Shown: positions 20,138 to 45,786 of the stretch, piece after piece | Layout of the letters: each line of letters begins with the position of its first letter | How positions within the stretch are numbered: the stretch's first letter is position 1 | Assembly: GCA_900547035.1 (NCBI GenBank) | Contig: URFM01000021.1 | Coordinates: 1-51,775 of the forward strand | Direction: 5' to 3' | Length of the DNA: 51,775 nt | Source: an uncultured Clostridium sp. | Lineage (GTDB): Bacteria > Bacillota > Clostridia > Lachnospirales > Lachnospiraceae | The notes under the pieces: generated by a model | Seen by the model: only the letters and a program-made list of their open reading frames with translations | Databases searched by the model: none | Told to the model about the DNA's origin: nothing | Position numbers and translations under genes: made by a program

Positions 20138-21157
20138 TCATCGGGAAACAGAAAGAGAGGTAGACTCCCGCACAATCAGCTCCGTATCCAGCAAGATCGT
20201 TTTATTGGGGATAGAGGGAGCCGTGATTTTTTCAATTAAAAGCTCACATGCCATCAGTCCGAGCCGCATCTGAGGCTGGTCGATGGTTGTAAGGCTTGGA
20301 ATGGTCATGGCTGATATGTCAATATTATCAAAGCCGATAACCTTTAAATCCTGAGGAATCCGCATGCCTACCAGGTGAGCGCCCCGAATCACTGAGGCGG
20401 CATATACGTCGGAAGTAGTGACAAAGCCGTCGGGAGGTGCGGCAGTACGAAGCAGCTGCATGGTGCTGGCAATGGCCAGCTCGTAGTTGATTTCCGGAAA
20501 AGTGACCACCAGGTTGGGGTCCGGCTCGATTCCGGCGGTTAAGAGAGCCTGGGCGTATCCTTTCTGGCGGTACCGGGCGTATTTGTATTCCATGGGACCG
20601 CTTAAAAAAGCAATACGCCTGCAGCCGTGAGAAATCAGATGCTCTGTCGCGATTTTACCGGCCTCAAAATCATCGATGGAAACATAGGGAAGGTCAATTT
20701 CATCATTGAACTCACAGCATTGAACCAGGGGGATTCGGGAGCTGATTTCTTTAAGAATAGCCAGAGGGATACTGTTGAGAGTAATGACTCCCACAGCGCT
20801 GACCTTCCGGAGAATCTCCAGAAAGCGGGCCAGGGTATTGTGGTTTAGAAAATCTTCGTTAATTAGCAGATGGTATCCGTGGCGAAGGGCTCCTGCTTTG
20901 GCACCGCGGATAATTTCATTATAAAATGGATTGTCCAGAGCGGGGGCGTTGATAATTAATACATTGTTTCTGGCACTTGCCCGATTTTGTTTTTCCTGAA
21001 AGGGGTAGCCGTGGGATTTTAAAACTTCCACTACGGCCTGATAGGTTTCCTCCTTTACAAGACTTTGATGATTTAAGACACGGGAGACGGTGGAAGGCGA
21101 GACGCCTGCCTCCCGGGCAATCTGAGCTACAGTTGGATATTTGGAAGATGGGTTCAT
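20138..21157 (-). CDS. LacI-family transcriptional regulator
   Basis: Repressor of 339 residues. The N-terminal LacI helix-turn-helix is intact (TVAQIAREAGVSPSTVSRVLNHQ, residues 8-30), followed by a hinge and a periplasmic-binding-protein-like effector domain (NVLIINAPALDNPFYNEIIRGA onward; VIGFDNIDISAMTIPSLTTIDQP near the C-terminus). The ATG at 21157 follows AGGAGGAAATTTTA; 13 further codons upstream are rejected. It is divergent from the sugar operon 21479-31673 and probably represses it until the imported sugar or a derivative binds. Candidate sites with a central CG lie at 21395-21406 and near 21316-21324. Confidence 0.92.
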   Translation of the reverse strand: MNPSSKYPTVAQIAREAGVSPSTVSRVLNHQSLVKEETYQAVVEVLKSHGYPFQEKQNRASARNNVLIINAPALDNPFYNEIIRGAKAGALRHGYHLLINEDFLNHNTLARFLEILRKVSAVGVITLNSIPLAILKEISSRIPLVQCCEFNDEIDLPYVSIDDFEAGKIATEHLISHGCRRIAFLSGPMEYKYARYRQKGYAQALLTAGIEPDPNLVVTFPEINYELAIASTMQLLRTAAPPDGFVTTSDVYAASVIRGAHLVGMRIPQDLKVIGFDNIDISAMTIPSLTTIDQPQMRLGLMACELLIEKITAPSIPNKTILLDTELIVRESTSLSVSR

Positions 21158-21350
21158 TAAAATTTCCTCCTGCTTGAAAAGATGGACGGGCCACAAAAAA
21201 CTAATTTTACTATATCAGCAAAGTATAAAATAATCAAGAAAAATTTCTGAAATATTTCATATATATTCTGAAACATCATGGCGAAATTCCCAACTATAGT
21301 AATTTTAATTGTGCAAAACGCTTAAAAAATCCGGACAATATTGATAAATA

Positions 21351-21379
21351 TTGACTAAAATAACAGGAGGTGATATGAT
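21351..21379 (+). promoter_or_regulatory. Promoter of the uncharacterised sugar operon
   Basis: TTGACT (21351-21356), 17-base spacer, TATGAT (21374-21379). The 321-base gap 21158-21478 holds this promoter, the candidate LacI sites and a leader of about 90 bases; I see no riboswitch in it. Confidence 0.65.
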
Positions 21380-21394
21380 TCTTTCAGAAATGAA

Positions 21395-21406
21395 TGAAAC
21401 GTTTTG
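21395..21406. promoter_or_regulatory. Candidate LacI-type operator
   Basis: TGAAACGTTTTG is centred on the CG step typical of LacI-family sites, with GAAAC/GTTTT half-sites, about ten bases downstream of the expected transcription start. A weaker AAAACGCTT element lies upstream of the promoter near 21316-21324, about 80 bases away, a spacing that could allow looping. Confidence 0.5.
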
Positions 21407-21478: not shown

Positions 21479-22645
21479 ATGAAAAAAGTCTTAGCGAGCG
21501 TACTGGCACTAACAATGGCAGCGTCCTTAGTGGGCTGCGGTTCCTCGTCTACCGCGGACACAACGGCTGCGGAGGCGCAGACAGAGGCTTCGTCCGCGGC
21601 GGAAGCGGCGGAAGACGGAACTGAGGCCCAGTCCGGTGAAGAGGCGGCAGAAGGAGGGGAAGAAGTCAGCTATGATTTTAAAATCGGCGTGATAACTCCC
21701 TCCGGAGACCATGGATTTACCGGTGAGAGCGTAGCTCAGGCAAATCTGGAGGCAGAGCTTCTGATGGAGCAGTATCCCGGTCTTGACATCACCGTTCGGG
21801 ACGGCATCGACGCTTCCGCTCAGATCACATCCATCGAGAATATGCTGGCCGGCGGAGATATGGACATGATTATTCTCTGGCCCATGGAAGGCGAGGCGTT
21901 AAGAAGCGCGGCTCAGTCCATCGTAGATGCCGGTGTGAAGCTGGTAGTTTACGACCGCCTGATTGAGGGATTTGAGCATGAAAACTTTGTAGGCGATATT
22001 ATGGGCGACAACGTAGGAATCGGCAAGAACATGGGCGAGTATCTGAACACCTTCTTCGCTGATGACGACGATGTACAGTATCTGCGCTTCGTAGGCGACA
22101 GCTCCACCGTTACCTCTCAGAGAAGCGATGGAATGGACGGCGTTCTGGCGGACAACTTTAATCAGGTTTCCGAGACTCTGGTAACCAACTGGTCCACCGA
22201 GACGGCGCAGACCCAGATGGAGAACTGGCTGGGCTCCCACAGCAAGGAAGAGATCGAGGCTCTCGATCTGATCGTAACCCATGACGACGAGATCGTAGAC
22301 GGCCTGATGAACGCTCTGGATGCATATTCAGGAGAGGCCGCCATCAATGTGAAGCTGATTACCTCCGTAGGAGGCCGTGAGGAAACTCTGCAGAAATTTG
22401 AGAATACACAGCTGGGCGTGAAGTTCTGGACCTCCTTCTTCTCCCCGTCCTTTATCCGTCAGGCATTTGAGCTGGGACTGGCTGACCTGACCGGACAGCC
22501 CTTTGAGGCAGAGCAGGATGAGAACGGAACCTATCTGATTCCTTCCTTCTCCATCACCAATGCAGATCAGGCAGGCGATGAGGACTTCGAGAGCTACCGT
22601 GCTACGGAAGACTATGAGGAGCGCTACGCCATCAGCCTGGAATAA
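21479..22645 (+). CDS. Sugar-binding lipoprotein (RbsB-like, Peripla_BP_4)
   Basis: Substrate-binding lipoprotein of 388 residues. The signal peptide MKKVLASVLALTMAASLVGC ends in a lipobox with C20. A stalk of about 40 residues, rich in Glu, Ala, Thr and Ser, follows, and then the two-lobed sugar-binding fold (FKIGVITPSGDHGFTGESVAQANLEAE; DMIILWPMEGEALRSAAQSIVDAG). AAAGGAGG precedes the start; 25 upstream in-frame codons are rejected. It is the first gene of the sugar operon and is separated from the ATPase gene by a hairpin (22687-22713). It delivers a sugar or polyol to the permease at 24230-25222. The ligand cannot be told from sequence. Confidence 0.9.
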   Translation: MKKVLASVLALTMAASLVGCGSSSTADTTAAEAQTEASSAAEAAEDGTEAQSGEEAAEGGEEVSYDFKIGVITPSGDHGFTGESVAQANLEAELLMEQYPGLDITVRDGIDASAQITSIENMLAGGDMDMIILWPMEGEALRSAAQSIVDAGVKLVVYDRLIEGFEHENFVGDIMGDNVGIGKNMGEYLNTFFADDDDVQYLRFVGDSSTVTSQRSDGMDGVLADNFNQVSETLVTNWSTETAQTQMENWLGSHSKEEIEALDLIVTHDDEIVDGLMNALDAYSGEAAINVKLITSVGGREETLQKFENTQLGVKFWTSFFSPSFIRQAFELGLADLTGQPFEAEQDENGTYLIPSFSITNADQAGDEDFESYRATEDYEERYAISLE

Positions 22646-22686
22646 GAAAAAAGAATGAACCATTTTCTGTAACTGACAGGAAATCC

Positions 22687-22713
22687 GGAAGGGCCGAACA
22701 GGCCCTTCCTTTA
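22687..22713 (+). terminator. Intercistronic hairpin in the sugar operon
   Basis: GGAAGGGCC (22687-22695), loop GAACA, GGCCCTTCC (22701-22709), then TTTAT. The stem is perfect, but the T run is short, so partial read-through is likely. Placed between binding protein and ATPase, it would keep the binding protein in excess, by partial termination or by protecting the upstream mRNA. Confidence 0.7.
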
Positions 22714-22737
22714 TAAACAGACAAAGGGGACATTAAG

Positions 22738-24255
22738 ATGCTGGTAGAAATGAAAGACATCGTAATGGAATTCGGGCCTACCAAAGCCGTAGATCATGTC
22801 AGTATCCAGGTGAAGCCGGGAACGATTCTGGGGCTTTTGGGAGAAAACGGCGCCGGAAAGTCCACCTTAATGAATGTGCTTGCAGGCACCTATCTGCCCG
22901 TATCGGGCGATATTCTGATCGACGGGAAAAAGGTTGTGATGAGCAACGCCAAGGTTGCCAACCGAAACGGAATCCGGTTTATCCACCAGGAGCTGAATCT
23001 GTGCGAGGATTTAAAAGTATTTGAGAATATGTATCTGGGCGAGGAAACCAGCCGTTTCGGCCTCCTTCGCAAGGAGGAGATGAAGAAAAACTGCCAGCAG
23101 GTCCTGGACCGGATGAAGGTCCGGATCAATCTGGAATCCCTGGTCGAGGAGCTGAGCGCGGCCCAGAAGCAGCTGGTGGAAATCGCCAAAGCTCTGCTGT
23201 TTCGGTCGGAATTGATTATTATGGACGAGCCCACTACGGCATTGTCCAACAACGAGATTGACAATCTCTTTGAGATTATGGAACAGCTGAAGGCGGAGGG
23301 GGTAAGCTTTATCTACATATCCCATAAAATGCCGGAGCTGTTCCGGATCTGCGATGATTACTATGTGCTCCGGGACGGACGTCTGGTGGCGGAAGGAAAG
23401 TTTTCCGACATCGACGAGGAGGGCATCACAGAGCTGATGATCGGTCATCAGCTGAATGAAGAAGATTTCTCCAATCATGAGGACTATACCAGGGAGGAAG
23501 TGGCCCTGGAGGTACAAAACCTTTCCGGAAACAATTTCCAGGATATCAGCCTTAAGCTCCACCGGGGCCAGGTCATTGCCATTACCGGCCTGCAGGGCTC
23601 CGGACGGGATGAACTGGCGGACGCCCTGTTCGGAGTAATCGGGGCGGAAGGAATTGTGAAAGTAAACGGCCAGGAAATTAAGAAAAACAGACCGGTGAAA
23701 TACCACATGGACCGGAAGATTGCCATGGTTCCCAGAATCCGGAAGGAGAGAGGAATCCACAACGATTTGTCCATCTATGACAATCTTTCCATGGCGTTTT
23801 TGAATACCAAGTGGAAAAAGCTGCTGATTAATGGTAAGCAGGAGCGGCAGCGCTACCAGAAGGAGGCAAAGGCCCTCCGGGTTAAAGCCGGAGATCCCGG
23901 AGAATCCATCACCTCTCTTTCCGGAGGAAACCAGCAGAAGGTGATTCTGGGAAAATGGCTGGAAACCGATGCGGATGTGTTTCTCTTTGACAATCCCACT
24001 CAGGGAATCGACGTGGGGACGAAATTTGAAATCTATCATCTGATTTTGAAGCTGGCCAGGGAGGGAAAGGCCGCTCTGGTGTTCAGCTCGGAATTTCCGG
24101 AGATCTATAAGGTGGCGGACCGCTGCATGGTTCTCTATAAAGGGAAAATCAACGCGGTGCTGGACCGGGATGAGATGACCGAAAAAAATGTAATGTACTA
24201 CTCGACAGGGGCGAATTTGGAGGCGGAGAATGATGGAGACTTTAAAGACAGTTGA
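22738..24255 (+). CDS. Sugar ABC transporter ATPase, two domains (RbsA/MglA type)
   Basis: Double ATPase of 505 residues, the normal RbsA length. The first domain has Walker A GENGAGKST (35-43), a degenerate signature LSAAQKQLVEIAKAL and Walker B LIIMDEPTTAL. The second has a degenerate Walker A, GLQGSGRDE, which is usual in this family, a good signature SLSGGNQQKVILGKWL and a Walker B reading FLFDNPTQGIDVG. There Asn replaces the Glu next to the Walker B Asp, so the second site may bind ATP without hydrolysing it. The ATG follows AAAGGGGACATTAAG. It overlaps the permease gene by 26 bases. It energises sugar import. Confidence 0.93.
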   Translation: MLVEMKDIVMEFGPTKAVDHVSIQVKPGTILGLLGENGAGKSTLMNVLAGTYLPVSGDILIDGKKVVMSNAKVANRNGIRFIHQELNLCEDLKVFENMYLGEETSRFGLLRKEEMKKNCQQVLDRMKVRINLESLVEELSAAQKQLVEIAKALLFRSELIIMDEPTTALSNNEIDNLFEIMEQLKAEGVSFIYISHKMPELFRICDDYYVLRDGRLVAEGKFSDIDEEGITELMIGHQLNEEDFSNHEDYTREEVALEVQNLSGNNFQDISLKLHRGQVIAITGLQGSGRDELADALFGVIGAEGIVKVNGQEIKKNRPVKYHMDRKIAMVPRIRKERGIHNDLSIYDNLSMAFLNTKWKKLLINGKQERQRYQKEAKALRVKAGDPGESITSLSGGNQQKVILGKWLETDADVFLFDNPTQGIDVGTKFEIYHLILKLAREGKAALVFSSEFPEIYKVADRCMVLYKGKINAVLDRDEMTEKNVMYYSTGANLEAENDGDFKDS

Positions 24256-25222
24256 GCCGAAAGCTTTATTCAAGAAAGTGGCAAGGGAGTATAGCTTTGT
24301 TTTTTCGCTGATTCTCCTGTTGATTATTGCCACATGTGTGAATCCGAACTTTTTTACCTGGAATAACATTACCAACATTTTTGTGCAGAGCTCCATGGTG
24401 GGACTGGTTGCCATGGGAATGAGCATGGTAATTTCCGCGGGGCAGATCGACATTTCCGTAGGAGCTCAGATTGCGATTATCGGAGGATTTGGCATCGAGG
24501 TGCTCAACAGCACCGGAAGCGTCTGGGTGATGCTGCTGTTCTGCTGTGCCTTTGGCATTGCCATTGGAACCGTAAACGGACTGCTGGTGTCTATGGGACA
24601 TATGCCGCCGATGATTGCTACCCTTGCCATGCAGTCCGCCTGCCGTTCCATCATCAACCATTTTGGTTCCGGCGGACCCTTTACGGTGGATAAGACCATC
24701 TATGAGTCCTTCCGCCAGCTGGCAGTGGGAGGAATCGGAGTGGGGAAATTTAAGGTTCCCTACCTGATGCTGATTTTCATTGCGGCGGGAATTATTTTCC
24801 ATATTATTATGAAGCATACCAAGCTTGGAAAACACATCTACGCAGTGGGAAGCAACGAGACAAGCGCCCGCCTGGCAGGCATCAATGTGGCGTTGATCAA
24901 GACGGTTGTATTCTCCATTACCGGCCTGATGTGCGGCATCGCGGCAGTGATCTACGCCTCCAGAATGACGGCGGTAGCTGCTTCCAGCGCGGCTGTGAAC
25001 TATGAGATGGACGCCATCGCGGCAGTTGCCATCGGAGGAACCTCCATGTCCGGCGGCCGGGGCAAGATTATCGGAACCTTTGTAGGCGTATTGATGTTTA
25101 AGATTATCAACAACATTCTGACGGCGGCGGATGTATCCACGTTCTTAAACGGTGCCATCAGCGCGGCAATTATCGTGATTGCAGTGCTGCTGCAGGGATT
25201 CCAGAACCGCAGCAGAAAGTAA
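24230..25222 (+). CDS. Sugar ABC transporter permease (RbsC type)
   Basis: Membrane permease of about 330 residues with eight to ten hydrophobic segments, of the RbsC/BPD_transp_2 family. Family landmarks are VAMGMSMVISAGQIDISVGAQ near 65-85, NETSARLAGINV (the ATPase-docking loop) near 205-216, and AVAIGGTSMSGGRGKIIGTFVG near 265-286. Two adjacent ATGs (24230, 24233) can serve as the start; both lie within the end of the ATPase gene, so the genes are coupled. It forms a homodimeric channel working with the binding protein at 21479 and the ATPase at 22738. Confidence 0.92.
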   Translation: MMETLKTVEPKALFKKVAREYSFVFSLILLLIIATCVNPNFFTWNNITNIFVQSSMVGLVAMGMSMVISAGQIDISVGAQIAIIGGFGIEVLNSTGSVWVMLLFCCAFGIAIGTVNGLLVSMGHMPPMIATLAMQSACRSIINHFGSGGPFTVDKTIYESFRQLAVGGIGVGKFKVPYLMLIFIAAGIIFHIIMKHTKLGKHIYAVGSNETSARLAGINVALIKTVVFSITGLMCGIAAVIYASRMTAVAASSAAVNYEMDAIAAVAIGGTSMSGGRGKIIGTFVGVLMFKIINNILTAADVSTFLNGAISAAIIVIAVLLQGFQNRSRK

Positions 25223-25253
25223 TGGATTTGTAAAAGAGGGAAGGTGAAGGAAA

Positions 25254-26294
25254 ATGCTGAAAGTAGGAATTATCGGCTGCGGAAAGATCGCTCAGGTGCG
25301 CCACGCGCCGGAATATCTGGAAAATCCAAATTGCAGCCTTGAGGCGTTTTATGATGTGGATTTTGAGCGGGCACGCCGGTTTGCCGAGGAATTTGGAGGA
25401 AAGGCTTATGCTTCCATGGAGGAGCTTCTGGCCGCGGACCTGGATGCGGTCAGCATCTGCACTGCCAATATCTACCACGCCCAGGGAGTGGTTGCGGCCC
25501 TGAAAGCGGGAAAGCATGTGCTCTGCGAAAAGCCAATGGCCATGAACCTGGAAGACTGCGAGTTAATGGCAAGGACGGCCAGGGAGCAAGGGAAGATCCT
25601 GATGATCGGACAGAATCAGAGGCTGGCCAGGGCCCATGTGGAGGGCAAACGGATTCTGGACAGCGGGGAAGTGGGAAAGCTGATTACCTTTCAGACCAGC
25701 TTCCGCCATCCTGGTCCGGAGGGATGGACGGGACAGAAAAATTCCTGGTTCTTTGACAAAAAGATAGCGGCCTTTGGAGCAATGGCGGATCTGGGAATCC
25801 ACAAGACAGACCTTCTGATTTACCTCACAGGGCAGAAGGTGGTCAAGACCTTTGCCAGACTGGAAACCCTGGATAAAAAATACCCGGACGGAACGCCGGT
25901 TTCGGTGGACGACAACGCCATCTGCACCTATGTGCTGGAAAACGGAGCCTTAGGGACCATGACGGTGAGCTGGACCAATTATGGGACGGAGGACAATTCC
26001 ACCCGCCTTTACTGTACCGAGGGCGTGATCCGGATGTACGATGACCCGGAGGCCTCTCTGATTGTGGAAAAACGGGACGGGACCGTAGAACGCTTTGCTT
26101 TGGACCAGCTGACCTCCAATAAAGACCAGACCGGAGGAAAGAGGACTTCCACCGGCGTGATCGACGCCTTTGTGGACAGCCTGATGAACGGCAAACCGTC
26201 GCCCATCAGCGGCGAGAGCGTGATTCCCGCCATGAAGGCGGTGTTTGCCAACGAGCGGTCCGCCAAAGAAGGCAGAATGGTGGATGTAGAATAG
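25254..26294 (+). CDS. Gfo/Idh/MocA-family oxidoreductase
   Basis: NAD(P)-dependent sugar or polyol dehydrogenase family, 346 residues. The Rossmann loop GIIGCGKIAQVRH (5-17) is followed by the catalytic-lysine motif CEKPMAMN (K93) and the DLGIHKTDLL segment with the family histidine near residue 183. The C-terminal alpha/beta domain is present to the end. GAAGGTGAAGG precedes the ATG. It lies between the permease and a TIM-barrel isomerase, a pairing common in inositol and rare-sugar catabolism. It probably oxidises the imported sugar or a hydroxyl of its derivative. The substrate is unknown. Confidence 0.9.
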   Translation: MLKVGIIGCGKIAQVRHAPEYLENPNCSLEAFYDVDFERARRFAEEFGGKAYASMEELLAADLDAVSICTANIYHAQGVVAALKAGKHVLCEKPMAMNLEDCELMARTAREQGKILMIGQNQRLARAHVEGKRILDSGEVGKLITFQTSFRHPGPEGWTGQKNSWFFDKKIAAFGAMADLGIHKTDLLIYLTGQKVVKTFARLETLDKKYPDGTPVSVDDNAICTYVLENGALGTMTVSWTNYGTEDNSTRLYCTEGVIRMYDDPEASLIVEKRDGTVERFALDQLTSNKDQTGGKRTSTGVIDAFVDSLMNGKPSPISGESVIPAMKAVFANERSAKEGRMVDVE

Positions 26295-26319
26295 ATTGAC
26301 GGAGAGGAGAGGGGACGAC

Positions 26320-27309
26320 ATGAAACGACCGATTACCATAGCTTCCGGGCAGTTTGGGGATATGCCCTTTGAGGAGCTTTGCAGAGTAGTAAGCGAGATG
26401 GGGTACGACGGCATTGAAGTGGCCTGCCATGCCCACCTGGATGCCGGGCGGGCGGCGGAGGATGAGGCCTACCGCAGAGAGTTTCAGGATACGCTGGAGA
26501 AATACGGGCTCAAGGTGTGGGCTTTAAGTGCTCATTTGGCAGGCCAGTGCGTGGGGGACCGGTGGGACCCGCGTCTGGACAATTTTGCCCCGGACAGCGT
26601 GAAAGGGCAGCCGGAGGCCATACGCCAGTGGGCCGTTAAGGAGATGAAAACGGTAGCTCGGGCAGCACAGGCGCTGGGAGTCAAGGTAGTGACCTGTTTT
26701 TTAGGATCTCCCATCTGGGCCTACTGGTATTCCTTCCCTCAGACGCCGCCTTCCATGGTGGAGGAAGGCTACCAGAAGATAAAAGAACTTTGGACTCCGA
26801 TTTTCGACGTTTACGACCAGTGCGGGGTGAAGCTGGCGCTGGAAATCCATCCCACGGAGATTGCCTTTGACTACTACAGCACCAAAAAGCTGTTGGATGT
26901 TCTGGAATGGAGGCCCACCCTGGGAATCAATTTCGACCCGTCCCACCTGCTCTGGCAGGGGATGGATCCGGCTGTGTTTTTGAGAGATTTTTCCAGCCGC
27001 ATTTACCATGTCCACATGAAGGATGTCAAAATGAACCTGGATGGAAGAAATGGGATTCTGGGCAGCCACATTGAGTTTGGAGACACGCACCGGGGCTGGA
27101 ACTTCGTATCCCTGGGGCATGGGGACGTGGATTTTGATGCCATTATCCGGGAGCTGAATCAGATGCAGTATACCGGTCCTTTGTCGGTGGAGTGGGAGGA
27201 CAGCGGAATGGAGCGGATGTTCGGAGCTTCAGAATCACTGGAATTTGTAAAGCAGATGAATTTTTCACCGTCCGATATCTGCTTTGATTCGGCACTGAAG
27301 GCAAATTAG
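26320..27309 (+). CDS. Sugar phosphate isomerase/epimerase (AP endonuclease 2-like TIM barrel)
   Basis: TIM-barrel metalloenzyme of 329 residues of the xylose-isomerase-like family. The metal ligands stand at the expected strand ends: E175 in LALEIHPTE, D206 in INFDPSHLLW, H232 in YHVHMKD and E291 in LSVEWED. The ATG at 26320 follows GAGGAGAGGGGACGAC; eight upstream codons are rejected. Family members epimerise or isomerise keto sugars, or dehydrate inosose. Together with the Gfo/Idh gene upstream and the HAD gene ten bases downstream, it probably acts on an oxidised or keto intermediate of the imported sugar. Confidence 0.88.
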   Translation: MKRPITIASGQFGDMPFEELCRVVSEMGYDGIEVACHAHLDAGRAAEDEAYRREFQDTLEKYGLKVWALSAHLAGQCVGDRWDPRLDNFAPDSVKGQPEAIRQWAVKEMKTVARAAQALGVKVVTCFLGSPIWAYWYSFPQTPPSMVEEGYQKIKELWTPIFDVYDQCGVKLALEIHPTEIAFDYYSTKKLLDVLEWRPTLGINFDPSHLLWQGMDPAVFLRDFSSRIYHVHMKDVKMNLDGRNGILGSHIEFGDTHRGWNFVSLGHGDVDFDAIIRELNQMQYTGPLSVEWEDSGMERMFGASESLEFVKQMNFSPSDICFDSALKAN

Positions 27310-27319
27310 GGGGACGCGT

Positions 27320-28171
27320 ATGGGAGAGGGTACAATCGAAGTGCTGCATCCTTTGCCCAAAGGGGCCAGGTTCCGTCATGGCGTGCTGGACTTTGACGGA
27401 ACCGTAAGCCTGATTCGGGAGGGCTGGCAGCAGATTATGATACCGTATTTCACCCAGGAGCTGGCGGATACGCCGGAGGGCAGAACGATTCCAATAGAAC
27501 AGCTGCGCCGGGAAGCCGAGGAATTTATTGCGGTCAATACGGGAAAGCAAACCATCTATCAATGCATTGAACTGGCGGGCCATATCCGGTCCCTGGGAGG
27601 AGAGCCCAGGGATCCCCAGGAATATAAGGACGAATATACGAGACGCCTGCTGTCTGCCATACAGGAGCGTCTGGACGGACTGGAGAAAGGAACGATTTCC
27701 CCGGAGGAGCTGCTGGTGCCGGGCTCGGAAGAACTTCTGCGGATGCTGACGGGCCATGGAGTCAAGCTGTATCTGGCCAGCGGGACGGACCACGACCATG
27801 TGCTGAAAGAAGCGAAGCTTTTGGGGATCCACCGCTGGTTTGGAGGCCGGATTTACGGAGCTCAGAGAGATTACAAGACCTTTTCCAAGAAAATGGTCAT
27901 TGACCGGATTGTGAGAGAAAACCATCTGGAAGGCCCGGAACTTTTGGGTCTGGGAGACGGATATGTGGAAATTGAAAACATCCGGGGAGCCGGAGGTTAC
28001 GCCTGCGGCGTGGCTTCCAATGAAAAGGAACGTCGGGGAATCGACCAGTGGAAGAGAAAGCGGCTGATCCGGGCCGGAGCGGATCTCATTATACCGGATT
28101 ATCGAAATTGGAAAGAATTGGAGAATTTCTTGTTCCCCGGGGAAGGACAGGAGGGAGAATATGCCGTTTGA
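27320..28171 (+). CDS. HAD-family phosphatase
   Basis: Haloacid-dehalogenase-type hydrolase of 283 residues. Motif I is LDFDGTVS (nucleophile Asp near residue 24), motif II is LASGTDHDH, motif III has the KKMVIDRI lysine, and the acidic motif IV is LGLGDGYVEIE. A helical cap lies between motifs I and II, as in phosphoglycolate phosphatase-like enzymes. It is not of the GmhB/histidinol-phosphatase type: I see no zinc-binding cysteine loop. It probably dephosphorylates a sugar phosphate of this pathway. It ends inside the start of the next gene (11-base overlap), so the two are translationally coupled. Confidence 0.87.
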   Translation: MGEGTIEVLHPLPKGARFRHGVLDFDGTVSLIREGWQQIMIPYFTQELADTPEGRTIPIEQLRREAEEFIAVNTGKQTIYQCIELAGHIRSLGGEPRDPQEYKDEYTRRLLSAIQERLDGLEKGTISPEELLVPGSEELLRMLTGHGVKLYLASGTDHDHVLKEAKLLGIHRWFGGRIYGAQRDYKTFSKKMVIDRIVRENHLEGPELLGLGDGYVEIENIRGAGGYACGVASNEKERRGIDQWKRKRLIRAGADLIIPDYRNWKELENFLFPGEGQEGEYAV

Positions 28172-29135
28172 AATTTTTGACCGAAGCCGTTTAAAGCTGC
28201 TGCCTCTTTCGCAGCGCATTCACGATTTGAACCTGGATGTGATGATGGATGAGGAGGAAAAACCGGCATTTTCCCATCCCTCCATTACGGAGCTGGCAGC
28301 CAGGATTCGCCGGGCAAAGGAGAAAAAGGCGGCGGTGCTTTTGATGCTGGGGGGACATGTCATCCGGTCCGGGGCGGCTCCCCTGTTAATCCGGCCGATG
28401 GAGGAGGGGTATGTGACCCATTTTGCCATGAACGGGGCGGCGGCCATCCACGACTTTGAATTTGCCATGATTGGAGCCACCACGGAGAGCGTGGCCAAAT
28501 ACATCAGCGAGGGCCAGTTCGGCCTGTGGCAGGAGGACGGACAGTATACCCAGGCCATTTCCGAAGGGGTGAAGGAAGGCCTGGGCGCAGGGGAAGCTTT
28601 GGGAAAATGGATTAAGGAGCATGATTTCCCCTATCAAAAGTACAGCCTTCTGGCAGCCTGTTATCAAAGGCAGGTTCCGGCCACCGTCCATATCGGCATC
28701 GGCTGCGATATTGTCCATGAGCAGCCAAATGCCGACGGAGCGGCTTTGGGTGAAGCCAGCTACCGGGATTTCCTGATCTATGCCAGAACGATTGAAAATC
28801 TGGAAAACGGCGTGTTTTTGAATTTCGGTTCCGCGGTAATCGGACCGGAGGTGTATTTAAAGGCCTTGTCCATGGCCAGGAACGTGGCACATCAGGAGGG
28901 GCGGGGAATCCGCCATTTTACAACGGCTGTGTTTGATTTGCTGCCGTTAGAGGGAAAAGACATTCACGAAGCGCCGCCAAAGAGCGATCCCAGGTATTAT
29001 TTCCGGCCATGGAAGACCATCATGGCCAGAACGGTTGCGGACGGCGGGGAGAGCTTTTACGTTGAGGGAAAGCACCGGGATACCATAGGAGCCTTGAGCT
29101 GGGAGCTTCTTCATGAAACGGGGGAAGAGAAATGA
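28161..29135 (+). CDS. Deoxyhypusine-synthase-like conserved protein of unknown function
   Basis: A 324-residue soluble protein. I recognise only a distant similarity to the deoxyhypusine synthase fold: an alpha/beta stretch with GGHVIRSGAAPLLI, then MNGAAAIHDFEFAMIGATTESVAKYI, then VPATVHIGIGCDIVHEQPNADG and the GVFLNFGSAVIGPEVYLKAL segment. The many short Gly/His/Asp motifs (IHDFE, IGCDIVH, NFGSAVIGPEV) look like an active site rather than a scaffold. No membrane segment or signal is present. It overlaps the HAD gene by 11 bases and the PfkB gene by four, so it belongs firmly to the sugar pathway. A bacterium has no eIF5A to modify; a role on a sugar phosphate with bound NAD is a guess. Confidence 0.6.
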   Translation: MPFEIFDRSRLKLLPLSQRIHDLNLDVMMDEEEKPAFSHPSITELAARIRRAKEKKAAVLLMLGGHVIRSGAAPLLIRPMEEGYVTHFAMNGAAAIHDFEFAMIGATTESVAKYISEGQFGLWQEDGQYTQAISEGVKEGLGAGEALGKWIKEHDFPYQKYSLLAACYQRQVPATVHIGIGCDIVHEQPNADGAALGEASYRDFLIYARTIENLENGVFLNFGSAVIGPEVYLKALSMARNVAHQEGRGIRHFTTAVFDLLPLEGKDIHEAPPKSDPRYYFRPWKTIMARTVADGGESFYVEGKHRDTIGALSWELLHETGEEK

Positions 29136-30166
29136 GGGAGCAGGAGTTAAGGGAACTGATGGCTCAATTCGGCGGTCTGCGCATTACGGTAGCGGGCGAC
29201 CTGTTTTTAGACCGCTGGTGGGAAGTAGATCAGAGCCTTCAGGAGCTGTCGGTGGAGACAGGACTTCCGGCCCGCCAGGTCACCGGTCGGAGGATGAGCG
29301 CCGGCGCCGCAGGGACGGTTTTAAACAATCTGGCGGCCCTGGGGGTTGGAACGATTCGGATTGTGTCCGCCATCGGGGATGACGGAGAGGGATATGAACT
29401 GAACCGTCTGCTGGGGGAGCGGAGGATCGACTGTACCTATCTGATTCGGGATGAACGGATTGTGACGCCTACCTACACAAAACCCATGTTTTATGAGCCG
29501 GGACAGGAGGAGAGAGAAGGAGAACGGTTTGACATTAAAAATACAGCTTCCATGCCGGAGGATATTCAGAAATGTTTGGCGGATTTTGTGCGGGAGGCGG
29601 CAAGGGACAGCGACGCCCTGATTGTGCTGGATCAGCTGGCAGAGGAAAATAGAGGCGTAGTGACGGCCTTTATGCGGCGGGAGCTGAAAGCGCTGGGGGA
29701 AGAAAGACCGGAATTTTTGATTTTCGCGGACTCCAGAGCCTTTGCGGACCGGTTCAGCTCCGTTACCATTAAATGCAACGATAAGGAAGCCAGAGCCATC
29801 ATGGGTCTGGAGGATGGTGATTTTTCTCTTGAGCAGATGGAAGGGTGCATGAAGGCATTGGAATTGAGAACCGGAAGAAAAGCGGTGATTACCTGCGGTT
29901 CCAGGGGAATTTTAGTAGAGGATGAAGGACAGACCTGTCTGCTTCCGGCCCTGCCGGTGAAGGGGCCCATGGATGTATGCGGCTGCGGTGATGTGTCTAC
30001 CTCAGGTCTGGTAAGCGCCCGGTGCGCCGGAGCGGGATGGAAAAAATCAGCGGAGTTTGCTAATCTCTGCGCTGCGGTGACCATAAGGAAAATCGGACAG
30101 ACCGGCACATCGTCCCCGGAAGAGATTCTCGGACGGTTTCGGGAAAATGAAGAGGAGAAGGCATGA
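29132..30166 (+). CDS. PfkB-family carbohydrate kinase, HldE kinase-domain-like
   Basis: Ribokinase-family sugar kinase, 344 residues. The N-terminal GDLFLDRWWEV (22-32) and the SAGAAGTVLNNLAALGVG stretch (56-73) resemble the heptose-7-phosphate kinase domain of HldE/RfaE. The ATP site is DVCGCGD (281-287), a variant of DTTGAGD with Cys in the anion hole and D287 as the catalytic base. Unlike HldE there is no C-terminal nucleotidyltransferase domain, so no ADP-sugar would be made. It is joined to its neighbours by four-base overlaps on both sides. It probably phosphorylates a sugar phosphate or free sugar of the pathway. Confidence 0.85.
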   Translation: MREQELRELMAQFGGLRITVAGDLFLDRWWEVDQSLQELSVETGLPARQVTGRRMSAGAAGTVLNNLAALGVGTIRIVSAIGDDGEGYELNRLLGERRIDCTYLIRDERIVTPTYTKPMFYEPGQEEREGERFDIKNTASMPEDIQKCLADFVREAARDSDALIVLDQLAEENRGVVTAFMRRELKALGEERPEFLIFADSRAFADRFSSVTIKCNDKEARAIMGLEDGDFSLEQMEGCMKALELRTGRKAVITCGSRGILVEDEGQTCLLPALPVKGPMDVCGCGDVSTSGLVSARCAGAGWKKSAEFANLCAAVTIRKIGQTGTSSPEEILGRFRENEEEKA

Positions 30167-31098
30167 GAATAGCGCTATGTTTTGATATAGGCGGCTCCAA
30201 GTATAACGTTGGCTTTATACGGGAGGACGGCGTTCTTCTGGGACAGGAGAAGGCGCGGTGGTCCCGCCCTTTAAGTGCTCAGACGGTGGAAGATGAGCTT
30301 GCGGCGGCCTGCGGCCGGCTGGGAGAACGTTTTCCCCAGATTTACCCGGACGTAATGGGAATTACCATTCCGGGCCTGGCGGATCCTCAGGAGGGGATTT
30401 GGGTGGATGCGCCCTTTTCCGGCATCCGCAATTTCCCTGTGCGGCAGAAGCTGGAAAAACGCTATGGGATTCCGGCGGCCGCGGACAATGACGGTCAAGC
30501 CTGCTGTCTGGCGGAATCCATATTCGGGTCCGCTGTGGGAAAACGGGATTTCTTCTATATGACCATTTCCAACGGAATTGGAGGAGCCCTGTTTTTGGAC
30601 GGAAAGCTTTATCAGGGAAAAGGGGGAGCGGGGGAAATCGGCCATTGCGTGGCGGAACCGGAAGGAAGACTCTGCCCCTGCGGAAACAAGGGCTGTCTGG
30701 AGGCCTGCGCAGCAGGACCGGGAATCAGCCAAAATTACCAGGAACTGCGGGAAGATAAGAGCCAGCCTCTCCTGGAGGCCAAGGAGATTGCCAGGCGGGC
30801 CAGGATGGGAGAAGGGGCCGCCCTGGAAACCTTCCGGATGGAGGGAGCGTATCTGGGAAACGCCCTGTCCTGGGTGATTAACCTGCTGAATGTTCCACTG
30901 GTGATTCTTGGCGGAGGCGTGTCGCTGGCCTTTGACCTGTTTGAGCCCAGTATGAAGGAGGCGCTGAAGGAGCGGGTATTTGCCCGGGCAAATCCGGCAG
31001 TGAAGGTAAGACCTACTTCTCTGGGGTACAACGGGGGATTATACGGAGCGGCCGCTCTGGGCTTTCTGCGGGCAGGAAAGAAGGTGAACGAGGGTTGA
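30163..31098 (+). CDS. ROK-family sugar kinase
   Basis: ROK-family protein of 311 residues without an N-terminal DNA-binding domain, so a kinase rather than a repressor. The phosphate-binding loop is CFDIGGSKYNVG (residues 6-17), the catalytic Asp is in AADNDGQA (near 110), and the zinc motif runs GEIGHC...CPCGNKGCLE with the His and three Cys intact. It probably phosphorylates a hexose or acyl-amino sugar. Two sugar kinases (this one and the PfkB protein just upstream, overlapping by four bases) in one operon suggest two phosphorylations, as in pathways through a bisphosphate, or two substrates. Confidence 0.9.
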   Translation: MRIALCFDIGGSKYNVGFIREDGVLLGQEKARWSRPLSAQTVEDELAAACGRLGERFPQIYPDVMGITIPGLADPQEGIWVDAPFSGIRNFPVRQKLEKRYGIPAAADNDGQACCLAESIFGSAVGKRDFFYMTISNGIGGALFLDGKLYQGKGGAGEIGHCVAEPEGRLCPCGNKGCLEACAAGPGISQNYQELREDKSQPLLEAKEIARRARMGEGAALETFRMEGAYLGNALSWVINLLNVPLVILGGGVSLAFDLFEPSMKEALKERVFARANPAVKVRPTSLGYNGGLYGAAALGFLRAGKKVNEG

Positions 31099-31673
31099 AG
31101 GAAAATTTTCTGTACGATTATAAGAAGGAACTGACCGATGCCATCTGGCAGGTGGACGAGGAGGTATTCCGGGAGGCGGTCCGGATTCTCTACCAGGCAT
31201 GGAGGGAGGACCGGCAGGTCTTTATCATGGGGAACGGAGGAAGCGCCGGGACGGCAAACCACTTTGTGTGCGATTTTGGGAAAAATTCCGTTCAGGGCGA
31301 TGGGAGAAGGCGGTTTCGGGTGATTTCCCTCTGCGACAATGTGGAGAAAATCACCGCCCTGGGAAATGATTTCTGCTTTGAGGAAATCTTCCGCTTCCAG
31401 CTGGGAAACCTGATGAATGAGGGGGACGTGCTGATTTCGGTCAGCGCCAGCGGCAATTCCCCGGATTTGGTGAGAGCCTGCCAGTACGCCAGGGAGAAAG
31501 GGGCAAAACAGATTGTCCTAGCAGGATTTAATGGAGGGGCAATACGGGAATTCGCGGATGCGGCCTTCGTGGTGCCCCTTGAGAGCTACGAGCGGATTGA
31601 GGACGTGCATCTGAACATCCTGCATATGCTGGTGGAGTATTTTAAGAAATCTCCGGAGCTGTTTGCGGAATAA
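31095..31673 (+). CDS. SIS-domain sugar isomerase, GmhA-like
   Basis: Phosphosugar isomerase of 192 residues, the size of GmhA (sedoheptulose-7-phosphate isomerase) and DiaA. The SIS motifs are GNGGSAGTANHF near 50-61 and VSASGNSPDLV near 116-126. The C-terminal helix ERIEDVHLNILHML aligns with the GmhA metal-site helix RIQEIHIKVIHIL. Compared with E. coli GmhA the two histidines H61 and H180 are kept, while E65 becomes Asp and Q172 becomes Glu, so substrate or metal use may differ. Translation starts with TTG at 31095, overlapping the ROK stop by four bases. It is the last gene of the operon, ahead of the terminator at 31683-31740. Confidence 0.87.
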   Translation: MKENFLYDYKKELTDAIWQVDEEVFREAVRILYQAWREDRQVFIMGNGGSAGTANHFVCDFGKNSVQGDGRRRFRVISLCDNVEKITALGNDFCFEEIFRFQLGNLMNEGDVLISVSASGNSPDLVRACQYAREKGAKQIVLAGFNGGAIREFADAAFVVPLESYERIEDVHLNILHMLVEYFKKSPELFAE

Positions 31674-31755: not shown

Positions 31756-34700
31756 TTACACTCCTGCCGCCGCTTCCTTTTTCAAATTCTTCTGAGCCGT
31801 CGCCAGCATAAGCTTAATCCGGTTCAGCTGATTTACCTCGCTGGCGCCGGGGTCGTAGTCTACGGCAATGATATTGGACTGTGGGTAATGGCGCCGCAGC
31901 TCCTTGATGACGCCCTTGCCTACGATGTGGTTAGGCAGGCAGCCGAAGGGCTGGGTGCACACGATGTTGTTTACTCCGCTGTGAATCAGCTCCAGCATCT
32001 CGCCGGTAAGGAACCATCCCTCGCCGGTCTGGTTGCCCAGGGACACAAAGCCTTTGGCCATCTGTGCCAGCTCATTGATATTGGAAGGCGGAGTAAAATG
32101 CTTGCTGGCGGAAAGTTCCTTCTTGGCCGTCTTGCGGAAGTACTCCAAAAGAGCGATCCCCGCGTTGCACAGATGGGCGGTGGAGCGCTTGGTCCCCAGG
32201 TGTTCCGCCTTAAAGTTGCTGTTGTAGAAGCTGTAAAGGAGGAAATCCATCAGATCCGGCATTACCGCCTCTGCTCCCTCGCTTTCCAGCAGGTCCACGA
32301 TATGGTTGTTGGCCAGGGGGGAGAACTTTACCAGGATCTCTCCCACGATGCCTACCTTTGGCTTTTTGATATCCAGCCTGGGCAGGGCGTCAAAATCCCG
32401 GATGATGCCCCGGACATTTCTGGAAAATTCCATCATGGCCGCGCTCCTCTTGGACAGGGACTTGATGCACCGGGCCTTCCATTTCTCGTGAAGGGCGTTG
32501 GCGCTTCCGGGCTCCTTCTCGTAGGGGCGAGTAGCGTAGAGCACCCGCATGAAAATGTCGCCGTAGACGACCGCCTGCATGGCCTTGGTCAGCATAGGCA
32601 GGGTGATGGAAAAGCCCGGATTGGTCTCCATGCCGTTGGCGTTGACGGAGATGACAGGTACCTGGCCCATACCGGCTTTCTCCAGAGCTCTCCGGATAAA
32701 TCCGATGTAGTTGGAAGCGCGGCAGCCGCCGCCGGTCTGGCTCATGACCACTGCAGTGTGGTCCAGGTCGTACTTGCCGGACAGCAGGGCGTCCATAATC
32801 TGGCCGATGACGATTAAGGAGGGGTAGCAGGCGTCGTTGTTGACGTACTGAAGTCCTACATCTACCGCGTTGCGGTTATGATTCTGCAGCACCTCCAGCT
32901 TGTAGCCGAAGGCCCGGATGGCCGGCTCAATTAGATCAAAATGAATGGGGGACATCTGGGGACACAGCAGAGTGTAGTCCTTTTTCATGTCTTTGGTGAA
33001 CAGAACCCGGTTGTAGGCGCTGGACACCACATGGCGCTCATAGTGCTTCTGGTCTCTTACCCGCAGGGCAGCGATGAGGGAACGGATGCGGATCCTGGCG
33101 GCTCCCAGATTGTTGACCTCATCGATTTTCAGCACCGTATAAATTTTGCCGGAATGGGTGAGGATGTCCGCCACCTGGTCCGTGGTTACCGCGTCCAGCC
33201 CGCAGCCAAAGGAGTTGAGCTGAATCAGATCCAGGTTGTCCTGTGTCTTTACAAAGCTGGCTGCAGCGTAGAGACGGGAGTGATACATCCACTGGTCCGT
33301 CACCACCAGAGGCCGCTCCACCTTTCCGAGGTGGGAGACAGAGTCTTCGGTCAGCACGGCAAAACCGTAGGAGGTGATCAGATCCGGAATTCCATGGTGG
33401 ATCTCCGGGTCCACATGGTAGGGACGTCCGGCCAGGACGATTCCCCGGCGGCCGTGCTCCTTCATCCAGGCCAGGGTCTCCTCGCCCTTCTGTTCCATGT
33501 CGTGGCGGGAGGCCAGCAGCTCCTCCCAGGCGGCGTGGGCTGCCATCTTTACCTCGGCGGCGGGAATCTGATACTCCTTGTCAAAGATCTTTACCAGCTC
33601 ATTGGTCAGAATCTCCTCATTGGTAAAGGCCATGAAAGGATTCAGGAAGCGGACGTTGTTCTCCGCCAGCTCCTCCACGTTGTTCTTGATGTTCTCCGCA
33701 TAGGAGGTTACCATGGGGCAGTTGTAGTGGTTTCCTGCATCCGGCGACTCGTTGCGCTCATAGGGGATGCAGGGGTAGAAGATGGTCTTCACGCCCTGAC
33801 GGATGAGCCAGCTGATATGTCCGTGGACCAGCTTGGCCGGGTAGCACTCGGATTCGCTGGGGATGGACTCGATGCCAAGCTCATAAATCTGTCTGGTAGA
33901 CTGGGGGGATAAAATGACCCGGAAGCCCAGCTTCTTGAAGAAAACGGCCCAGAAGGGGAAGTTTTCATACATATTCAGGACCCGGGGAATCCCCACGATT
34001 CCTCTGGAGGCCTCGTCCTCCGGCAGAGACTCGTAGTCAAACATCCGGTGGTACTTATAGTCGAACAGATTGGGAACTTCCTTCTTGGATTTCTCGATGC
34101 CCAGCCCCCGCTCGCAGCGGTTTCCGGAGATGAAACGGCGGCTGCCGCTGCCGAACTGGTTGATGGTCAGTACGCAGTGGTTGTTGCAGCCCTTGCAGCG
34201 GGTCATGGAGGTGGTGTACTTTAAGTTTACGATCTTGTCCAGGGGCAGCATGGTGGTGGAATGGTCCTCGCCATCGGGAATCATGTGATACCGCTCTCTG
34301 GCAATGAGGGCGGCTCCGAAGGCTCCCATGATGCCGGCGATATCCGGGCGGACCGCATTGCAGCCGGAAATTTTCTCAAAGCTTCTGAGCACCGCATCGT
34401 TGTAGAAGGTGCCGCCCTGAACCACCACATGGGAGCCCAGGTCAGAGGCCTTTGTGATCTTGATCACCTTAAACAGAGCGTTTTTGATGACGGAGTAGGC
34501 CAATCCGGCAGAAATATCCGCCACGGAGGCGCCCTCCTTCTGGGCCTGCTTTACGTTGGAATTCATGAACACGGTGCAGCGGGTTCCCAGGTCCGTGGGA
34601 TTTTTGGCAAAAAGAGCTTCCTTTGCAAAATCCTCCACGCTGTAATTTAAGCTCTTGGCAAAGGTCTCAATGAAGGAACCGCAGCCGGAGGAGCAGGCTT

Positions 34701-36036
34701 CATTTAACTGAACGCTGTCCACGGTGCCGTCCTTGATCTTAATGCATTTCATATCCTGCCCGCCGATGTCCAGGATGCAGTCCACATCCGGCTCGAAGAA
34801 CGCGGCGGCGTAGTAGTGGGAGATGGTCTCCACCTCTCCCTCGTCCAGCATAAGGGCTGCCTTCAGAAGAGCCTCGCCGTATCCGGTGGAACAGGAACGG
34901 ACGATCTTGGCCTCCGGGGGAAGCTGCTCCTTGATCTGGCTGATGGAACGGATTGCCGTGGCCAGAGGGCTTCCGTGGTTGTTGTCATAGAACCGGTAAA
35001 GGAGCTGTCCGTCCTCGCCCACCAGGGCCACCTTGGTGGTGGTGGAGCCGGCGTCGATACCCAGATAGCAGTTGCCCTTGTAGGAAGCCAAATCCCCGGT
35101 CTTTACCTTGTGGCCGTTGTGGCGCTCACAGAAGGCGTCGTAGTCCGCCTGGTCCACAAAGAGGGGCTCCATCCGCTTTACCTCAAAATCCATCTGAATG
35201 CCGTGGGAAAGGCGGTCGATGAGGGAAGTCAGCTCCTGGGGCTCCTGCCCGTCCTGGGGATTCAAGGCGGCTCCCACCGCGGCGAACAGGTGGGAATGTT
35301 CCGGGGCGATAATCTGGTCCCCGGTCAGGTGAAGGGTGCGGATAAAGGCCTTTCTCAGCTCCGGAAGGAAATGAAGGGGTCCTCCCAGGAAGGCCACGTT
35401 GCCCCGGATGGGCTTGCCGCAGGCAAGGCCGCTGATGGTCTGATTGACCACCGCCTGGAAAATGGAGGCGGCCAAATCCTCTCTGGTAGCGCCCTCGTTA
35501 ATCAGGGGCTGGATGTCCGACTTGGCGAACACGCCGCAGCGGGCGGCGATGGGGTAGATGGCCTTGTAATTTTTGGCGTACTCGTTTAACCCTGCGGCGT
35601 CGGTCTGCAGCAGGGAGGCCATCTGGTCGATGAAAGAACCGGTGCCTCCGGCGCAGATGCCGTTCATCCGCTGGTCGATGCCGCCGGTGAAATAGATGAT
35701 TTTCGCGTCTTCTCCGCCAAGCTCAATCGCCACATCGGTGCGGGGAGCGTAGTCCTGAAGGGCAGAGGCTACCGCAACTACCTCCTGGATAAAGGGTACG
35801 CCCAGGTGGGAGGACAGAGCCAGTCCTCCGGAACCGGTAATCATGGGTAAAACACTGACCGGCCCCACGGTATCCATCGCTTTCTGCAGAAGGCCCGCCA
35901 GAGTTTTCTGAATATCCGCGAAGTGCCGTTCGTAATCGGAAAAGAGAATCTTGTGATCCGCATCCAGAAAGGCGACTTTTACGGTGGTAGAACCGATGTC
36001 GATTCCAAGTGTCAAATTTGTATGTAATGAACTCAT
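31756..36036 (-). CDS. 2-hydroxyacyl-CoA dehydratase activator-type fusion protein
   Basis: A 1426-residue cytoplasmic protein. It begins with two BcrAD/BadFG ATPase domains: the first has [10 protein letters not shown] at 11-20 and the cluster-cysteine loop ICAGGTGSF, the second [12 protein letters not shown] near 325 and [18 protein letters not shown] cysteine group lies near 614, a DUF2229 domain follows from about 680, and a C-terminal part resembles the HgdB subunit of 2-hydroxyglutaryl-CoA dehydratase ([12 protein letters not shown] near 1100, [11 protein letters not shown] near 1355). It should bind one or more [4Fe-4S] clusters and drive electron transfer with ATP. No dehydratase subunits are encoded nearby, so the substrate is unknown. 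The only good ribosome binding site, AAAGGAGG, lies 24 bases before the ATG, with no in-frame start between. Confidence 0.85.
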
Positions 36037-36356: not shown

Positions 36357-36402
36357 TAGTTGGAATTTGAGTAAAATGTATGAAAAACAAGGAGGGACGT
36401 AT

Positions 36403-45722: not shown

Positions 45723-45786
45723 TAGGGTAAGAGCAGCGGGATGAATCCGTTGAGGGAGAATTTGTCGGTGAGAAAGGGGAATGCGT

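Follow-up and report, generated by a model that had tools for sequence, protein, structure and literature searches.

The closest described counterparts of the enzymes considered here are GmhA, HldE, GmhB and HldD (the ADP-heptose epimerase) of ADP-heptose biosynthesis. A ten-gene operon (21479-31673, + strand) in the window, by which we mean the entire 51,775-nucleotide stretch of contig URFM01000021.1 from an uncultured Clostridium sp. (assembly GCA_900547035.1, Lachnospiraceae), likewise encodes a GmhA-like SIS protein, an HldE-like kinase and a HAD protein, and loci for ADP-heptose biosynthesis contain relatives of a further operon product, a member of the GSU2086 protein family. The operon departs from such loci in having an importer and a repressor and no adenylyltransferase; moreover, its kinase, isomerase and HAD protein fall outside the curated families, and GSU2086 stands where HldD would be expected.

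A second counterpart is the hldE-GSU2086-gmhA cluster of Geobacter sulfurreducens (GSU2085-GSU2087), in which a protein of the same NCBIfam family, by name, adjoins kinase and isomerase genes, albeit in a biosynthetic neighborhood. The entries for these three genes in PMC5585712 give electrode-growth defect values of -3.1, -3.2 and -3.7, and GSU2086 is labeled there as 'Hypothetical cytoplasmic protein in sugar biosynthesis operon'. With the superfamily of deoxyhypusine synthase (DHS), 1,9-bis(guanidino)-5-aza-nonane synthase and the ArgZ ornithine cyclodeaminase, GSU2086 shares a Rossmann region and an NGA..HDFE motif, and in the clade to which the window's protein belongs it has a lysine near the C-terminus; the overall similarity is faint, however, and the neighbors of GSU2086 are sugar genes. 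Lastly, the 3-keto-glucoside/C-glycoside pathway (dehydrogenase, lyase and 2-hydroxy-3-keto-glucal hydratase) is outlined in PMC12101588 as 3-oxidation of the glycoside, elimination of the aglycone, and conversion of the keto-glucal to glucose by hydration and then reduction. Judged by sequence, the Gfo/Idh dehydrogenase of the operon resembles DgpA and its TIM-barrel protein resembles the hydratase 8ro4, but no separate lyase was recognized in the operon. The five further enzymes are, to our knowledge, not part of that pathway. It is these five that make up a conserved module around GSU2086, and the sugar on which they act is most likely a heptose or a close relative.

A five-gene module surrounds GSU2086

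The last five genes of the operon are as follows.

27320..28171, + strand: HAD-superfamily protein, presumed phosphatase, core module (PF00702)
28161..29135, + strand: GSU2086-family protein, predicted DHS/ArgZ-like Rossmann enzyme, core module (NF052581)
29132..30166, + strand: PfkB kinase, HldE-like, core module (PF00294)
30163..31098, + strand: ROK sugar kinase, frequent module member (PF00480)
31095..31673, + strand: SIS aldose/ketose-phosphate isomerase, GmhA-like, frequent module member (TIGR00441, below cut-off)

The second of these scores 380.5 bits against NF052581 (cut-off 250), placing it firmly in the GSU2086 family. The names 'HldE-like' and 'GmhA-like', which a preliminary description of this DNA had given to the kinase and the isomerase, reflect a real resemblance, but the scores lie far below the family cut-offs (TIGR02198, 122 bits versus 345; TIGR00441, 117.6 bits versus 209.45), and the kinase falls outside the E. 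coli HldE clade in our tree. The HAD protein has no NCBIfam match, and so was not filed under GmhB, and no PDB match at E 0.01.

To compare neighborhoods we used 104 stretches including the window, leaving out short loci (L027-L063, L098-L106 and L116-L133) and duplicates (L080, L081, L083, L087 and L090). Two clades of GSU2086 are associated with HAD and PfkB genes, the window's clade (I_win, 28 loci) and a second one (II_cat, 24 loci). Across these 52 loci, several of them closely related, we counted genes within 4 kb of GSU2086 (356 kb of DNA) and in the rest of the same stretches (361 kb). HAD genes numbered 36 near and 0 farther away, PfkB genes 37 and 3, SIS genes 20 and 0 (HAD-fused forms being excluded from the 20), and ROK genes, some of which encode ROK regulators, 21 and 3. 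The clustering of these genes around GSU2086 is not due to chance. Within the window's clade, where several contigs end early, HAD, PfkB and SIS genes lie within 5 kb of GSU2086 in 24, 24 and 20 of the 28 loci, respectively, and a scan of a genome collection found HAD and PfkB beside GSU2086 in 15 of 24 loci, several of the others being at contig ends or in other contexts.

The module of HAD, GSU2086 and PfkB, to which ROK and SIS are often added, is found repeatedly in Clostridia, spirochaetes, Planctomycetota and Chloroflexota, and its conservation is well supported. What does not hold is the proposal of the preliminary description that all seven enzymes of the operon form one conserved set: the core three travel together, often with SIS and ROK, and the Gfo/Idh and TIM-barrel genes are optional. 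Thus, what began as a loose idea about heptose-like enzymes becomes a defined five-gene module.

Several variations on this arrangement were seen. In a Clostridia group a nitrilase-family gene comes just after PfkB (L010-L014 and L085, with one small gene between in L010). One locus (L005:1073-5067) has two GSU2086 genes, one from each of the two superclades described below, in a single apparent operon, and a separate HAD gene accompanies each of them. A second-clade GSU2086 gene in L086, the only locus of its kind in which families were scanned, lies beside genes for a protein with a GH42 trimerization domain, an AXE1 esterase and an FAD oxidoreductase; L078, L084, L088 and L091 resemble this layout by gene length.

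Isomerase types follow two GSU2086 superclades

A tree of 103 GSU2086 proteins, from which those shorter than 270 residues were excluded and to which L143, whose GSU2086 open reading frame was not recognized, did not contribute, divides into superclade I (n=48) and superclade II (n=55). Superclade I comprises the window's clade, a long form, and type B loci, which contain an adenylyltransferase and an AT-kinase, mostly together with SIS, radical SAM proteins and transketolase halves. Superclade II comprises a heptose-core clade, whose loci contain AT-kinase, LpxK, GmhB, GmhA or heptosyltransferase genes, a spirochaete group, and the second HAD/PfkB clade.

The isomerases divide along the same line. 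In place of H61, E65, Q172 and H180 of E. coli GmhA, presumably the metal and catalytic residues of that enzyme, the SIS protein of the window has H, D, E and H, and so differs from GmhA in the middle pair. This D/E pair is present in 27 of 28 SIS proteins from superclade I loci (one of which lacks H180 and three of which are HAD-fused); the exception, L172, fits neither type, and its SIS gene is 6 kb from the GSU2086 gene. All eight SIS proteins of superclade II keep the E/Q pair, indicating that the active-site types of the isomerases follow the GSU2086 superclades. The kinases of HAD/PfkB loci form one clade of 36, apart from both the E. coli HldE clade and the type B kinases (midpoint root). 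In addition, a GH38 alpha-mannosidase gene lies within 5 kb in 3 of the 24 loci of the second HAD/PfkB clade, which is consistent with a manno-configured sugar.

GSU2086 occurs in heptose loci and tends to avoid HldD in two phyla

Inspection of the other branches of the family shows that relatives of the window's protein stand in biosynthetic loci. In L162, GSU2086 is accompanied by two GT9 heptosyltransferase genes and by AT-kinase, GmhB-like and GmhA-like genes, a layout repeated in L163 and L164 (which are near-identical). LpxK is near GSU2086 in L137 and in L150, the latter also with an AT-kinase, and 15 of the 26 loci in the heptose-core clade have an AT-kinase gene within 5 kb. In L018-L020 an AT-kinase with SIS and transketolase halves is found near GSU2086, and L018, despite its biosynthetic context, belongs to the window's own GSU2086 clade. 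These neighborhoods tie GSU2086 to heptose or heptose-like metabolism.

Two further clusters were noted among these loci. One is a recurrent nucleotide-sugar cluster (L018, L019, L020, L026 and L159-L161) of GSU2086, AT-kinase and a GmhA-like SIS gene, joined in most cases by a separate adenylyltransferase, radical SAM proteins and transketolase halves. The other is planctomycete: in L137, the only one of its group in which families were scanned, GSU2086 sits between LpxK and an HhH-GPD DNA-glycosylase-like gene, with a dihydroorotase-like gene next and no clue to a sugar in the cluster beyond LpxK. Gene lengths in L134-L140 are similar.

Above the family cut-off, GSU2086 was found in 24 of 391 Clostridia, 10 of 198 spirochaete, 106 of 199 Planctomycetota, 16 of 77 Nitrospirota and 5 of 61 Synergistota genomes. 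Its distribution in two of these phyla is skewed against that of HldD. When HldD is called at E 1e-60, 8 of 54 HldD-positive Planctomycetota genomes carry GSU2086 as compared with 98 of 145 HldD-negative ones (p 2.5e-11; 8 with both, 46 with HldD only, 98 with GSU2086 only and 47 with neither), and the skew persists when only HldD matches over the cut-off are counted (8 of 47 versus 98 of 152, p 1e-8). In Nitrospirota, the corresponding figures are 5 of 56 and 11 of 21 (p 1e-4; 5 with both, then 51, 11 and 10). The five Nitrospirota genomes with both genes carry the type B form; for the heptose-core clade taken by itself, exclusion is complete (0 of 56 versus 10 of 21, p 3e-7; 0, 56, 10 and 11). 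Of 20 extra stretches typed for this analysis, L201 was left out and L194 had no GSU2086 open reading frame. The exclusion supports a role for GSU2086 in heptose-core synthesis that would make HldD unnecessary. For organisms in which HldD seems to be missing, this work supplies a concrete hypothesis.

GSU2086 may be a distant relative of deoxyhypusine synthase

The GSU2086 family is very large: at least 8000 proteins match at E 1e-10, every candidate scored being among them, and of the 120 matches listed, each one that bears a source name is annotated as hypothetical. Two plasmid-borne members were found, and a search of phages returned none. No function for the family was found in the open-licence literature.

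The preliminary description had called the protein 'DHS-like'. A weak kinship with DHS is indeed indicated by sequence profiles, but the label hides the GSU2086 family and its relatives in heptose loci. Comparison of the GSU2086 profile with a DHS gave E 9e-4 over 222 columns at a probability of 22%, a faint similarity, and comparison with an ArgZ-like protein gave E 4e-8 over 67 columns, so that a DHS-like fold is the predicted one. The DHS model PF01916 has no match on the window's protein at E 0.01; with a cut-off of 27 bits, it matches one relative weakly (L118, the L019 protein; 25.2 bits, or 28.9 with in-frame neighbors) and scores another, L119, at 21.9 bits, under the cut-off. None of 118 Clostridia genomes, some of them GSU2086 carriers, contains a PF01916 match.

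Residues invariant in all 103 proteins include H66, H97, D98, E100, E109, D203, K234, N241, D259 and R282. A lysine near the C-terminus, K285 in the window's numbering, is present in all 48 superclade I proteins and in all 25 of the second HAD/PfkB clade. DHS presumably also has its active-site lysine near the C-terminus; alignment programs did not place K285 upon it.

The operon combines an importer and a repressor with optional enzymes

The remaining genes and sites of the locus are listed below.

20138..21196, - strand: LacI-family repressor, divergent from the operon (PF13377, PF00532 and PF00356, all over cut-off)
21316-21323, no strand assigned: putative operator-like site AAACGCTT (LacI-type pattern scan; consensus match only)
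21351-21379, no strand assigned: promoter-like site (promoter scan; consensus match only)
21397-21404, no strand assigned: putative operator-like palindrome AAACGTTT (LacI-type pattern scan; consensus match only)
21479..22645, + strand: sugar-binding protein of a CUT2-type ABC importer (PF13407)
22738..24255, + strand: importer ATPase, two ABC domains (PF00005, two stretches)
24230..25222, + strand: importer permease (PF02653)
25254..26294, + strand: Gfo/Idh/MocA sugar dehydrogenase, optional part (PF01408)
26320..27309, + strand: TIM-barrel AP_endonuc_2 protein, related to 2-hydroxy-3-keto-glucal hydratase, optional part (PF01261)

All ten reading frames of the operon are open on the + strand, and these and the divergent LacI gene lie where the preliminary description had placed them. 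That description gave gaps of 31 bases or fewer, which is true of every junction except that between the binding protein and the ATPase (92 bases); the other gaps measure 31 bases (permease to Gfo/Idh), 25 bases (Gfo/Idh to the TIM barrel, with its ATG at 26320) and 10 bases (TIM barrel to HAD). The overlaps of 4 to 26 bases that it reported follow from the coordinates, at 26 bases for ATPase and permease, 11 for HAD and GSU2086, and 4 for each of the last three junctions (GSU2086/PfkB, PfkB/ROK and ROK/SIS).

The LacI-family regulator reaches no equivalog cut-off among NCBIfam models. In the divergent intergenic region, the two LacI-type operator-like sites (21316..21404) flank the promoter-like site, all of them consensus matches only, and the operator pattern is not enriched across the window (7 found, 5.3 expected). 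The combination of a Peripla_BP_4 protein, a double ABC ATPase and a BPD_transp_2 permease identifies the importer as CUT2-type. Its binding protein matches ChvE/XylF models weakly and has PDB relatives too distant to assign a ligand, and its ATPase reaches the cut-off of none of the listed sugar-specific NCBIfam models (the best 25 of 192).

The closest solved structure to the Gfo/Idh protein is DgpA (7xr9, 5e-31); for the TIM barrel the nearest is 2zds (1e-101), followed by the hydratase 8ro4 (7e-53). Assignment to the inositol enzymes IolG and IolE was rejected at 146 bits (cut-off 355) and 63 bits (cut-off 290), respectively. Because a Gfo/Idh gene paired with a window-type TIM barrel occurs in just four loci (the window, L004, L093 and L112), the pair is an optional attachment to the module; L007 and L025 have Gfo/Idh and TIM-barrel genes of other types.

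Profile scans with Pfam and NCBIfam found no nucleotidyltransferase among the operon's genes and its regulator, in agreement with the preliminary description. We also searched 27 genomes for the HldE adenylyltransferase domain, two of which are biosynthetic by context. Of the remaining 25 draft genomes, 17 have no match at E 1e-12 and eight have a match that stays below the cut-off, by less than 6 bits in G363 and G399. Catabolism is favored because an importer and a LacI gene are present and the adenylyltransferase is mostly missing from relatives, and the earlier proposal that the operon serves catabolism or salvage and employs heptose-like enzymes is therefore upheld; the catabolic direction is well supported.

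A proposed route for the imported sugar

We tentatively propose, as a reading that may well need revision, a LacI-controlled catabolic operon in which an imported aldose is phosphorylated by PfkB, epimerized by GSU2086 and dephosphorylated by HAD before being handed on by ROK and SIS. The CUT2-type transporter would import the sugar or its glycoside, from which, in this strain, the Gfo/Idh and TIM-barrel proteins would probably free the sugar by 3-oxidation. The other five enzymes would act as a mobile salvage module: PfkB would phosphorylate the aldose, C1, the position used by HldE, being the most likely site; GSU2086 would epimerize the sugar phosphate, using nicotinamide adenine dinucleotide (NAD) in a redox-neutral manner; HAD would remove the phosphate that PfkB had added, leaving a free, changed aldose; ROK would phosphorylate a terminal hydroxyl; and the GmhA-like SIS protein would convert the aldose phosphate to a ketose phosphate for central metabolism, which for a heptose would be sedoheptulose 7-phosphate. 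An order of kinase, GSU2086 and HAD fits the behavior of HAD, GSU2086 and PfkB as a fixed trio and of ROK and SIS as a variable pair, and implies that GSU2086 would act on a sugar phosphate whether its locus is biosynthetic or catabolic. If the route is correct, heptose catabolism would connect the degradation of bacterial envelopes with the pentose phosphate pathway.

A more far-reaching version, which we consider unlikely to hold in full, is that GSU2086 represents a new class of heptose epimerase, NAD-dependent and redox-neutral, with a DHS-like fold, one branch of which replaces HldD in the synthesis of the lipopolysaccharide core in several phyla while others drive the first known catabolism of bacterial heptose, each with its own GmhA-like isomerase. 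Were this so, some gut and environmental bacteria would eat heptose that others build into their envelopes.

A number of observations weigh against these proposals. We know of no reaction assigned to GSU2086; the kinase and isomerase miss the HldE and GmhA cut-offs, and the HAD protein has no model. The HldD exclusion concerns superclade II and not directly the window's superclade I, whose type B form coexists with HldD in five of the six Nitrospirota genomes that have only type B; of the eight Planctomycetota genomes with both genes, five have the core form (with one type B, one long form and one not resolved), and exclusion in that phylum is partial. In Synergistota the distribution is not significant (HldD over cut-off: 0 with both, 7 with HldD only, 5 with GSU2086 only and 49 with neither), there being two further HldD fragments and no statistical power. 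The tests ignore relatedness between genomes, and each phylum sample includes a center genome picked for having GSU2086. K285, moreover, is found in none of the 30 proteins of the heptose-core clade and its spirochaete sister, and because the lysine is kept in the window's branch and lost in the heptose-core branch, the chemistry of the two may differ. Of the 24 loci in the second HAD/PfkB clade, only 11 have a HAD gene within 5 kb of GSU2086. In the window's clade, just 9 of the 28 loci have a CUT2-type ATPase gene within the same distance, and the same number a permease gene, other loci being near other transporters, such as MFS, SSF or oligopeptide-type systems. Finally, SIS and HAD form a single protein, SIS first, in three loci (L017:2116-3621, L092:10572-12278 and L093:10354-11745), a fusion that may mean neighboring steps, unlike the order proposed.

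Alternative explanations

The two kinases and the HAD protein also accommodate a bisphosphate route, in which ROK would form an aldose phosphate, SIS a ketose phosphate and PfkB a ketose bisphosphate for cleavage by an aldolase, with HAD and GSU2086 serving side reactions or a variant sugar. 1-Phosphates are frequent products of PfkB kinases, and a gene annotated as a DeoC aldolase is present in a Chloroflexota cluster. The operon itself has no aldolase, however, and HAD is linked to GSU2086 as tightly as PfkB is (36 and 37 near) and is present even in loci that have neither SIS nor ROK (L064, L072 and L141, for example), so that it looks like a core step. We regard this route as rather unlikely; the bisphosphate intermediate suggested by the preliminary description is possible and is not needed.

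Equally doubtful, in our estimation, is that GSU2086 oxidizes a nitrogen-bearing carbon, as do DHS and ArgZ, in the degradation of an amino or N-linked sugar. The profile kinship to these enzymes would suit such imine chemistry, as would the lysine near the C-terminus, kept by all 73 proteins of superclade I and the second HAD/PfkB clade, and the nitrilase-family gene that comes just after PfkB in 6 of the window clade's 28 loci. Yet the nitrilase is limited to one group, program alignment does not bring the lysine onto that of DHS, and profile scans recognized no sugar deaminase or deacetylase in the operon.

We think it more improbable still that the operon serves ordinary glycoside or inositol catabolism, its five-gene module handling a common hexose. 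The likeness of the Gfo/Idh and TIM-barrel proteins to IolG/IolE and to 3-keto-glucoside enzymes prompts this explanation, but both inositol cut-offs are missed (146 of 355 and 63 of 290 bits), the window-type pair was seen in only four loci, and a common hexose should need neither GSU2086 nor a GmhA-like SIS or HAD step. The least probable of the alternatives is anabolic salvage of the imported sugar to a sugar 1-phosphate for an envelope nucleotide sugar, which draws on the HldE/GmhA-like enzyme set, on biosynthetic relatives (L018 among them) and on the near-cut-off adenylyltransferases elsewhere in the module genomes G363 and G399, but which sits poorly with the LacI gene and importer, both pointing to catabolism, and with the draft genomes, 17 of 25 lacking an adenylyltransferase match and none reaching the cut-off.

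The interpretation offered in the preliminary description is, overall, partly supported. A rare sugar, heptose, ketose or polyol was proposed there as the substrate; the choice of heptose is still inferred. No orthologous operon with an assigned sugar was found, and the open-licence literature yielded no description of the operon.

Elsewhere in the window, a 1426-residue BcrAD_BadFG/DUF2229 protein with a CoA enzyme activase domain is encoded at 31756-36036 (- strand), convergent with the end of the operon, and choline-binding repeats occur in two proteins, encoded at 36367-37473 (+ strand) and 45781-46803 (+ strand).

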